This document shows, piece by piece, positions 43,255 to 46,632 of a DNA stretch of 64,000 bases; position 1 is the first letter of the stretch; each line of letters starts with the position of its first letter. Source of the DNA: Candidatus Pseudothioglobus singularis PS1 (GTDB taxonomy: Bacteria; Pseudomonadota; Gammaproteobacteria; PS1; Pseudothioglobaceae); NCBI RefSeq assembly GCF_001281385.1, contig NZ_CP006911.1:806001-870000 (forward strand). The letters run 5' to 3'. Position numbers and translations under genes: made by a program. Under the pieces are notes generated by a model. It did not search any database. It worked only from the letters and a program-made list of their open reading frames with translations, and was not told the DNA's origin.

Positions 43255-43293
43255 AAAAAAAAACCAGACTGCTAAAGTATAGCAGTCTGGTTT
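43255..43293 (-). terminator. Hairpin terminator or attenuator between aapJ and aapQ
   Basis: A perfect 14-bp stem (AAACCAGACTGCTA with TAGCAGTCTGGTTT) has a 5-base loop and is followed on the minus strand by about nine T. It begins 22 bases past the aapJ stop. Inside an ABC operon it most likely lets only part of the transcripts continue into the permease genes and stabilises the aapJ message. Confidence 0.9.
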
Positions 43294-43314
43294 AGGTTCT
43301 AACTAGATAATTAC

Positions 43315-44322
43315 TTATCTAAATGGAGGTGAGTAAAGAATACCACCTTGCGACCATAGTGCGTTAACACCACGAGCAATACCAATTGGAGTAGAAAGTC
43401 CAATGTTACGCTCGAAGCTTTCAGCATAGTTACCTACTTGCTTAACGATTTGGTAAGTCCAGTCTGGAGTCAGACCAACATACTCATGAGTGCTTCCTGA
43501 ACGACCCATTAAGCGCTCACGCTCTGGGTTGTTAGAAACATCATCAACGTTACCACTGTTAACACCAATTTCTTCTGCAGTAATCATAGCGTTTAAAGAC
43601 CATCTTACAATGTTGAACCATTGATCGTCACCTTGACGAACAACAGGACCTAGAGGCTCTTTAGAAATGATTTCTGGAAGTACTACATGCTCTGAAGGAT
43701 CATTTGCACCTGCACGCATTGAGTAAAGACCAGAAGCATCAGTTGTTAATACATCACAACGTCCAGCGTCATAGTTAGTTAGAGTTTGAGCATTAGTATC
43801 TGATACAACTGAGTTGTACTCGATTCCATTTGCTTTACCCCAGTCAGCTAAGTTCAATTCAGTAGTAGTACCTGCTTGAATACAAATTGCAGCACCACTT
43901 AATTCCATAGCACTAGAAACACCTAGAGAAGACTTAACCATAAAGCCTTGTCCGTCATAGTAGTTAACACCAGCAAAGTTCAATCCTAATGAAGCGTCAC
44001 GAGTAATTGTCCAAGTCGTATTTCTAGACAACATATCGATCTCACCAGATTGTAGCGCAGTGAATCTTTCCTTAGCAGTTAATGGTACAAATTTAACTTT
44101 AGTTGCATCACCAAGCGTTGCAGCAGCAACAGCACGACAAACATCAACGTCAATACCAGTCCATGTACCAGACGAGTCAGCTGAAGAAAAACCAGCAAGA
44201 CCTTTAGAGACACCACAAGATACGTGTCCTTTAGCCTGAACGTCGCTCAAAGTAGAAGCCTGTACACTAAGTGCACCAACAACTAACAATGAAGCAGCAG
44301 ACAATTTTAATAATTGTTTCAT
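43315..44322 (-). CDS. aapJ: Periplasmic amino-acid-binding protein AapJ-like
   Basis: Solute-binding protein of the importer. From ATG 44322 it has 335 residues with a signal peptide at 1-22 (LLKLSAASLLVVGALSVQA). The mature part shows the family pattern VQAKGHVSCGVSKGLAGFS, GIDVDVCRAVAAA and PLTAKERFTALQSGEIDML. The start at 44322 is preferred over 44364 because AAGGAG lies seven bases upstream (44328-44334) and the signal peptide begins there. It heads the operon and is divergent from nadE. Confidence 0.95.
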   Translation of the reverse strand: MKQLLKLSAASLLVVGALSVQASTLSDVQAKGHVSCGVSKGLAGFSSADSSGTWTGIDVDVCRAVAAATLGDATKVKFVPLTAKERFTALQSGEIDMLSRNTTWTITRDASLGLNFAGVNYYDGQGFMVKSSLGVSSAMELSGAAICIQAGTTTELNLADWGKANGIEYNSVVSDTNAQTLTNYDAGRCDVLTTDASGLYSMRAGANDPSEHVVLPEIISKEPLGPVVRQGDDQWFNIVRWSLNAMITAEEIGVNSGNVDDVSNNPERERLMGRSGSTHEYVGLTPDWTYQIVKQVGNYAESFERNIGLSTPIGIARGVNALWSQGGILYSPPFR

Positions 44323-44364: not shown

Positions 44365-44757
44365 AATTGAATGAGGTTCACAGAAAATTTTAACACTAGT
44401 TAAACAAGTAATACAAATTAATTATTAAAAAAAAATTTAAATCAATTCAACTAGTATGGCTTGATTTTTGCTATTAAAGCGATAATATCCTCTAATTCAG
44501 ATCTAGAAAAGTTGAATTAAATTCAAGTAATTAGATTCTTTTTATTTAGCTGACAAATTGTTTTTATAAAGAATTTGATTAGATAATGCTAACAATCTTA
44601 ATGTATTCATTATAAATTAAATTGTTTTAATTCAATGAGTTATATATAAATTAGTTAAATCTTACATGTATTATTTTTGTTATTATAAGTAATTTTAGTT
44701 ATTTTTTACCTATAGTGGTATAAAATAACTAATATATAGTTTAATTAATGAAACACA
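44365..44757. other. 393-base divergent spacer between aapJ and the HTH-NadE gene
   Basis: Very AT-rich. Its notable contents are the palindrome at 44695-44732 and a plus-strand sigma-54-like sequence at 44457-44472 (TGGC-N7-TTGCT with the GG-N10-GC spacing). For aapJ on the minus strand a TTGTAT-18-TAAAAT pair is a weak promoter candidate. No gene, tRNA or riboswitch pattern is seen. Confidence 0.4.
44695..44732. promoter_or_regulatory. 36-38-bp near-perfect palindrome, likely operator for the HTH-NadE protein
   Basis: Arms TAGTTATTTT (44696-44705) and AAAATAACTA (44722-44731) are perfectly complementary. The inner ACC and GGT triplets are also symmetric about the same centre (44713.5), and one further pair extends each end. 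The right arm overlaps a TATAAA/TAAAAT -10-like box and ends 26 bases before the nadE start. This is what an autorepression site of the fused helix-turn-helix domain would look like. Binding itself is inference. Confidence 0.7.
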
Positions 44758-46632
44758 ATGATCATCAAAACTACCGAATACCTAGCAATGGTGCGTGATA
44801 AAACAGGTTATTCTGATTATAAAATAGCTAAAGAATATGACATTAATCAGTCAAATCTTAGTAAATATAGCTCTGGAAAGGCTGCTTTAAGCGAAACACA
44901 CGCTTGGTTGATCGCTAATATCCTTGATATAGACCCTGCTGAGGTTGTTGCAAATACTAAATTTGAACACGCAATAAATACAGGTAATAACTCGAAGGCC
45001 AAATTTTGGCAAGAACAGTTAAATAAAATATTTTCTGAAACCTCACCAATCAGAATACAAATCGCACAATTTAACCCTATTGTTGGGGATATTAAGTTGA
45101 ATGCACAAAAAATGCTTGATTTGTCTATTGAGGCTAATAATGCTGGAGCTCATTTAATTATATTTCCAGAGTTGGCCTTGACTGGCTATCCTCCTGAAGA
45201 TTTATTGTTTCGAGATGGATTTACTAATCAGGTCAAAGAGGAAATAACAAATTTCTGTAATTTGGTGCCTTCAGACATTTCAATTTTATTTGGTGCACCG
45301 AACAAAACTGATGACTTTCTTTTTAATAGCGCCTATCTTATTCAAAATAATCGAATCTTTAATATTTACAACAAGCAGGAATTACCAAATTATGGTGTTT
45401 TTGATGAAAAACGTTATTTTTCATCTGGTGTCGATTCTTTTGTATTTGAATGTCAAAATACCAAAATAGGTGTGTTAATTTGCGAAGATCAATGGGTCGA
45501 AGGTCCCATTTCAAGTTTATGCCAGTCGAATATTGATATTGTGGTTTCGCTTAATGCCTCACCATTTCAACTTAATAAGCAAAGTGAGCGCATAAATATC
45601 TGTAAAAATTATGCTTTAAAGTTTGATATTACTTTTATTTATGTGAATATGGTGGGTGGCCAGGATGAGGTTGTATTTGACGGTAACTCCTTCATAGTTA
45701 ATAATCAGGGAGATGTGTCCCTTCAACTCCCAGCCTTTAAAGAGCTGAGCGTTTCTCATATTGACACAACATTTACCCCTTCTTTGGTTAGCAATGTATC
45801 TTTAATCTATTCTGCCATTGTTTTAGCAACAAAGGACTATATTCAAAAAAATACTTTTGGCGGTGCTTTAATCGGTTTATCTGGAGGCATTGATTCTGCT
45901 TTAACTTTAGCTATTGCTGTTGATGCAATTGGTGCAGAAAATGTCCATGCAGTTATGATGCCATATCAATTTACCTCTGATATGAGTTTAACTGACTCTG
46001 AGCTTCAAGCTGAAACTCAGGGTGTTGAGTTTTCTAGTATCGATATCCATTCAATGGTTGACTCATTCAACTTATCACTGAGTGATCAATTTAGAAATAC
46101 TTCTAGAGATACTACTGAAGAAAATATTCAGTCACGTGTCCGTGGAACCCTTTTAATGGCTTTATCTAACAAATCTCATAAGCTTGTTCTTGCAACAGGT
46201 AATAAGTCTGAAATGGCTGTTGGTTATGCTACATTGTATGGTGACATGTGTGGCGGATTTGCACCTCTCAAAGATATATCAAAAACTATGGTTTATCAAC
46301 TAGCAAAATATCGAAATACCCTATCTGATGTCATTCCTGAAAGGGTAATAACTAGGCCCCCTTCTGCAGAGCTTGCGCCCGACCAGGTTGATCAAGATTC
46401 ACTTCCGTCTTATGATATCTTGGATGATATTTTGATGAGATTTGTAGAACAAAAACAGTCTGTTAATGAAATTATAGAAAATGGCCATAACTCAGAAGAT
46501 GTCAATAAGATTACTTCTTTAATCTTAAGAAATGAATATAAAAGAAGACAGTCTGCCCCTGGGCCCAAAATAAGTAGCAATGCCTTTGGAAAAGAAAGGC
46601 GTTACCCTATGACGTCAAAGTTTAAACCTTAG
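44758..46632 (+). CDS. nadE: Glutamine-dependent NAD+ synthetase with an N-terminal helix-turn-helix domain
   Basis: Makes NAD+ from deamido-NAD+, ATP and glutamine. The 624 residues exceed the usual 540-550. Residues 98-330 are the nitrilase-like glutaminase domain, with E138 in IFPELALTGYPPEDLL, a lysine in NKQELPNYGVFDEKRYF and the cysteine in LICEDQW. Residues 340-624 are the synthetase, with the P-loop SGGIDS at 375-380. Residues 1-92 are extra: KIAKEYDINQSNLSKYSSGK (22-41) is a helix-turn-helix, and DPAEVVANTKFEHA then FWQEQL recall phage Cro-like/DUF3693 regulators. No alternative start lies near residue 98, so the domains form one chain. A palindrome lies 26 bases upstream. The divergent gene is aapJ. 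Confidence 0.93.
   Translation: MIIKTTEYLAMVRDKTGYSDYKIAKEYDINQSNLSKYSSGKAALSETHAWLIANILDIDPAEVVANTKFEHAINTGNNSKAKFWQEQLNKIFSETSPIRIQIAQFNPIVGDIKLNAQKMLDLSIEANNAGAHLIIFPELALTGYPPEDLLFRDGFTNQVKEEITNFCNLVPSDISILFGAPNKTDDFLFNSAYLIQNNRIFNIYNKQELPNYGVFDEKRYFSSGVDSFVFECQNTKIGVLICEDQWVEGPISSLCQSNIDIVVSLNASPFQLNKQSERINICKNYALKFDITFIYVNMVGGQDEVVFDGNSFIVNNQGDVSLQLPAFKELSVSHIDTTFTPSLVSNVSLIYSAIVLATKDYIQKNTFGGALIGLSGGIDSALTLAIAVDAIGAENVHAVMMPYQFTSDMSLTDSELQAETQGVEFSSIDIHSMVDSFNLSLSDQFRNTSRDTTEENIQSRVRGTLLMALSNKSHKLVLATGNKSEMAVGYATLYGDMCGGFAPLKDISKTMVYQLAKYRNTLSDVIPERVITRPPSAELAPDQVDQDSLPSYDILDDILMRFVEQKQSVNEIIENGHNSEDVNKITSLILRNEYKRRQSAPGPKISSNAFGKERRYPMTSKFKP

Follow-up and report, generated by a model that had tools for sequence, protein, structure and literature searches.

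A conserved palindrome before HTH-nadE as the probable operator of a presumably self-repressing NAD synthetase in the SUP05 family

Enzymes with DNA-binding domains and the HTH-NadE protein

To our knowledge, few enzymes double as their own repressors, the standard examples being PutA, BirA and NadR. The DNA-binding domain of PutA is a ribbon-helix-helix, and BirA recognises an operator dyad that extends over about 40 bp. PutA of Escherichia coli and Salmonella was described as a metabolic enzyme that carries its own DNA-binding domain and binds only the spacer before its own gene (PMC8249747), and BirA as an enzyme of cofactor metabolism that represses the genes of its own pathway by an N-terminal HTH (PMC6978683). 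Autoregulation by BirA was reported solely in Desulfovibrionales, and NadR of Enterobacteriales was reported to be absent from other Proteobacteria (PMC5343134). The controller protein C.Esp1396I binds as two dimers to a 35-bp operator of two pseudo-dyads, each made of two short boxes round a TATA centre and overlapping promoter elements (PMC3758141).

The window analysed here, a 64-kb stretch of DNA, contains the HTH-nadE gene (44758..46632, + strand), in which a Cro/CI-type HTH (aa 1-95) is fused to a glutamine-dependent NAD synthetase, the enzyme of the final step in making NAD. The 624-aa product comprises HTH_3 (aa 10-62), CN_hydrolase (102-336) and NAD_synthase (351-598) domains. The Pfam glutaminase and synthetase domains were matched at E-values of 3e-25 and 3e-72, full-length matches were found in the family, and the DNA-binding domain and the enzyme lay in one open frame throughout. 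When 21 family members were aligned, dozens of residues of the HTH part (44758..45042, + strand) proved invariant. Residues 1-95 matched phrog_4441, a family of phage-type HTH proteins, over most of their length (E 4e-14). An all-helical HTH fold was modelled by AlphaFold with a mean pLDDT of 92.5. The nearest folds found by Foldseek included C.AhdI, C.Esp1396I and the lambda and 434 repressors or Cro; the probabilities were near 1 but the E-values were weak (best 0.11), so the fold class is supported and a closest relative is not claimed. The N-terminus of NadE is confidently predicted to adopt an HTH fold, which resembles that of Cro/CI-type regulators.

The nadE gene was present in all 49 near-complete genomes of the SUP05 family, a group of marine sulfur bacteria, and the match included the HTH in 70 of the 72 family genomes that had a match. 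The two genomes with no readable HTH were represented by a contig-end fragment (G404) and by an apparent adapter artefact (G424). In the latter, what we take to be an MGI/BGI sequencing adapter stood at two nearby places of the contig (L130, G424:C1:83600-85200) and interrupted both the HTH-coding region of nadE and the beginning of aapJ. The break was treated as an artefact of assembly, and the genome was rejected as a natural HTH knock-out. The HTH of NadE was found in none of the 365 other gammaproteobacterial genomes, and outside the SUP05 family the NadE matches started at about residue 95. When 84,980 species were scanned with a pattern, 56 SUP05 family loci (Pseudothioglobus, Thioglobus, Ruthia, Ruthturnera and Bathymodiolus symbionts) and three weak Flavobacterium matches were retrieved. 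The fusion looks ancestral to the family. It was also observed that one relative with an intact HTH-NadE encodes, as a separate protein, an 84-aa homologue of this HTH (L170, G261:C117:30504-32576, positions 1001-1252), a hint of a mobile, phage-type origin of the domain.

HTH-NadE resembles PutA in being a metabolic enzyme with its own DNA-binding domain and in having its candidate site only before its own gene. It differs as a biosynthetic enzyme with a Cro/CI-type HTH; PutA also controls the transporter gene putP, whereas control of a neighbour was not supported for HTH-NadE. BirA likewise has an N-terminal HTH on an enzyme of cofactor metabolism and a long dyad, but its HTH is a winged helix and it controls the bio operon. 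NadR is also an HTH fused to enzyme domains of NAD metabolism and represses NAD genes, but the fusion is to NMN adenylyltransferase and not to NAD synthetase, and it has multiple targets (nadA-pnuC and others). NadR-type NMN adenylyltransferase/ribosylnicotinamide kinase domains were absent from HTH-NadE, whose enzyme domains are CN_hydrolase and NAD_synthase. Controller proteins such as C.Esp1396I share the Cro/CI-like fold, and their type of operator, two adjacent pseudo-dyads of two short boxes each, is matched here by two such pseudo-dyads within 36 bp; unlike HTH-NadE, they are stand-alone regulators with GACT boxes and not enzymes. NrtR, NadQ and NiaR also control NAD genes at the level of transcription, NadQ at least via a palindromic motif, but they are separately encoded, have other DNA-binding domains and motifs, and none is NadE. 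The literature searched yielded no description of an NAD synthetase with a fused HTH, which is weak evidence of novelty as most subscription journals lay outside its scope. A survey of the NAD synthetase family (PMC3376133) made no mention of an HTH or of DNA-binding.

The palindrome and its conservation

The palindrome TAGTTATTTTTTACC-TATAGT-GGTATAAAATAACTA was located at 44696-44731 (full 36 bases: TAGTTATTTTTTACCTATAGTGGTATAAAATAACTA), and 26 bases separated it from the nadE ATG at 44758. It can be written as an operator dyad of two arms, TAGTTA-N5-TACC-N6-GGTA-N5-TAACTA. Matches were found in 15 of the 18 pairs: from outside in, 10 pairs were followed by one mismatch, four pairs that include the ACC/GGT triplet, two mismatches and the central TA. 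The near-perfect palindrome, its perfect 10-base arms and its inner triplets were thus as the initial annotation had described them; a further matching pair, 44695/44732, flanks the dyad and accounts for the slightly wider coordinates given there. It was the top-scoring 36-bp dyad of the window, with a runner-up of 13/18. Dinucleotide shuffling of the spacer (393 bp) produced an inverted repeat of the same quality 19 times in 2000 (p ~0.01). The statistical surprise of the repeat alone was small because the spacer has only 19% GC, and therefore the case must rest on the comparison between genomes.

The dyad was the most conserved stretch of the spacer in the 21 loci of the genus, with a mean pairwise column identity of 0.90; the value was 0.54 immediately upstream, fell to 0.40 at a greater distance, and was 0.56 on the downstream side. 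In a genome-wide search allowing up to three mismatches, it preceded HTH-nadE in all 17 sampled genus genomes that hold the gene, so no genus genome of the sample had kept the HTH gene and lost the dyad. No such dyad was detected in 14 outgroup genomes. Elsewhere in the genus genomes just two matches were found, one site with three mismatches in each of two genomes, and the genome of the window had no second dyad. The exact arm GGTAWWWWWTAACTA occurred twice in this genome (1.71 Mb; 1,714,148 bases, one contig), both times within the dyad, and its one-mismatch sites there were not commoner than those of the reversed control pattern. A conserved candidate cognate DNA site, as expected of a trigger enzyme, was hence present, and it was a single-target one: one site per genome, adjoining its own gene.

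In the 83 family genomes, 79 of the 94 exact arms lay at nadE, spread over 54 genomes, while the reversed control pattern gave 52 matches. The 15 arms located away from nadE did not exceed the background. When they were inspected singly, 14 proved to lie within open frames. Four of these shared a polA-like gene, the sole recurrent location, and there the match is accounted for by the coding sequence; the fifteenth stood in an intergenic region ahead of a purE-like gene and was seen in one genome. No second conserved target emerged, and a wider regulon was rejected. Other genera of the family kept the arms as GKTA-N5-TAMC at shifted positions. The strict core TAMC-N6-KKTA was failed by 27 of 69 upstream regions, many of them by one base.

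Arms, promoter and proposed mechanism

Each arm is a short pseudo-dyad in its own right, GKTA-N5-TAMC (G[GT]TA-N5-TA[AC]C). The left arm, GTTA-TTTTT-TACC (44698..44710), and the right arm, GGTA-TAAAA-TAAC (44717..44729), are each 13 bp long and spaced by 19 bp, both inside the 36 bp. The right arm was near-invariant in the genus, with a mean column identity of 0.99 across 15 bp, and corresponds to the arm nearest the promoter in the other genera of the family. In relatives the boxes were swapped at the same place, TACC for TAAC and GTTA for GGTA, and this interchangeability suggests four equivalent recognition boxes. The size of the palindrome had been regarded by the initial annotation as that expected for the operator of a dimeric or tetrameric HTH protein. 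The operator role was well supported, and the picture of a single 36-bp palindrome for one dimer needs refining, since two pseudo-dyad arms suit two HTH dimers.

Additional elements were recognised upstream. A degenerate distal arm, TAGTTA-AATCT-TAC (44652..44665), is a half-site kept in the genus about 45 bp upstream of the dyad. The 67 upstream regions together contained 111 arms, whereas shuffled sequences gave 1.6 on average. At 44630..44642, about -130 from the start codon, the window has, with one mismatch, the IHF-consensus-like site WATCAANNNNTTR. This site was exact in 45 of 64 family upstream regions (shuffled mean 0.7) at a nearly fixed position, and the genome has four HU/IHF-type genes. 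In two loci, L010 and L011, a second complete pair of arms was observed behind the conserved dyad, giving four arms in a row between about -105 and -28 relative to the HTH-nadE start.

A putative core promoter (44716..44735, + strand) was placed inside and beside the right arm by alignment with sister genera. Two -10 candidates were available, the extended -10-like TGGTATAAA (44716-44724) and TAATAT (44730-44735); the latter aligned with a clear TATAAT that immediately follows the right arm in the sister genera. The -10-like TATAGT that had been said to overlap the palindrome is present, while the promoter itself remains putative, as a simple sigma-70 consensus scan scored none in the window spacer. 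In the other genera the two-arm core TACC-N6-GGTA was found at about -99, and a further arm at about -53 fills the -35/-10 spacer before TATAAT. The dyad lies at about -51 in the genus of the window, and therefore its exact relation to the promoter differs among genera. The overlap of the operator with the likely promoter argues for repression and not for activation.

It was proposed that the palindrome is, in all probability, the dedicated single-target operator of HTH-NadE acting as a self-repressing trigger enzyme, and the assignment to the adjoining HTH-NadE protein, made already in the initial annotation, was well supported by conservation with the gene and uniqueness in the genome. Two HTH dimers, from one NadE oligomer or from two, would occupy the two 13-bp arms side by side. 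Glutamine-dependent NAD synthetases were described as octamers or dimers (PMC6946656), so that one enzyme particle could supply several HTHs. Bound over the nadE promoter, the dimers would block RNA polymerase, and the enzyme would limit its own synthesis. As with PutA or BirA, DNA binding would probably depend on whether the enzyme is free or holds deamido-NAD, ATP or NAD. Binding by HTH-NadE, repression and any metabolite response are what we infer from the sequence comparison. A more elaborate scheme, in which HTH-NadE is an NAD-sensing self-repressor whose synthetase oligomer presents several HTHs to the array of arms and IHF bends the DNA near the distal arms, is put forward only tentatively.

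If the proposal is true, a self-contained circuit of NAD feedback operates in the abundant, streamlined SUP05 bacteria and in the related symbionts of mussels and clams. In some genomes of this clade the circuit seems to be breaking down, so that the idea can be tested.

Alternative regulators, roles and neighbouring elements

Any genome has other HTH proteins, and the dyad might be the operator of a regulator with a gene of its own, such as another repressor of the Xre family or of NAD metabolism, with a different role left for the HTH of NadE. This was considered unlikely. The site occurs once per genome and at nadE only, a second copy of the NadE-type HTH was not found in the genome of the window, and the site, constantly accompanied by the HTH, tracks the fusion through the family and decays together with it.

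The decay was seen in four complete genomes of about 1.0 Mb (G406, G407, G410 and G414; loci L131-L134 and L187-L190), which are inferred to belong to clam symbionts. Divergence of their HTH exceeded that of the NadE part by a factor of 1.5-2.3 (0.4-1.1 in their sisters), and the HTH carried 4-9 replacements at otherwise invariant residues. The distal pair of arms was lost in the same genomes, while the NadE open frame was retained and the enzyme part was conserved. The joint decay of the HTH and the distal arms supports, but does not prove, a link between the HTH and the site. The four genomes are related, so that a single loss in one clade, followed by drift, may have produced it, and genome reduction alone could loosen both elements.

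The aapJ-like gene for a solute-binding protein (43315..44322, - strand) is the divergent neighbour of nadE in all 21 genus loci. The HTH-NadE operator might accordingly also act on the importer genes that begin with aapJ, so that glutamine uptake and NAD synthesis would be regulated together in the manner of putA/putP, for which PutA offers a precedent (PMC8249747). An influence of this kind on the importer had been suggested by the initial annotation, and the comparison did not bear it out. The dyad lies about 370 bp from the aapJ start codon at 44322. Moreover, aapJ was not found in the fetched upstream sequence (about 970-1500 bases) of L023, L025 and L028, but the arms were still present at nadE, which indicates that the operator goes with nadE. 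The aligned part of the spacer, which stopped short of the aapJ-proximal stretch, showed little conservation beyond the IHF-like site in the direction of aapJ. The distance and the persistence of the arms mark aapJ as probably no target, and joint control was judged improbable.

An RNA hairpin, acting as an attenuator or leader structure in place of a DNA site, could form about 15 pairs if the palindrome were transcribed, but this role is very improbable. The scan of the spacer gave no terminator-like site, and in sister genera the two-arm core is upstream of TATAAT, hence untranscribed from that promoter. Furthermore, the conserved letters are those of the GKTA/TAMC boxes, and the intervening A/T bases vary with no pairing kept (TTAAT opposite TAAAA in L010). 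A chance product of the AT-rich spacer, conceivable given the shuffled repeats, was refuted almost beyond doubt by strong conservation against a diverged background in 17/17 genomes.

Two other repeats were noticed around aapJ. A second, short inverted repeat, AGTTGAATTAAATTCAA, is located closer to this gene at 44509-44530 of the window and could be a candidate aapJ operator; L006 has AGTTGAATTAGATTCAACT at a similar place. A near-perfect hairpin, AAACCAGACTGCTAAAGTATAGCAGTCTGGTTT, was observed at 43260-43294, between aapJ and the downstream permease gene, and is probably an intercistronic terminator or an mRNA-stabilising hairpin.
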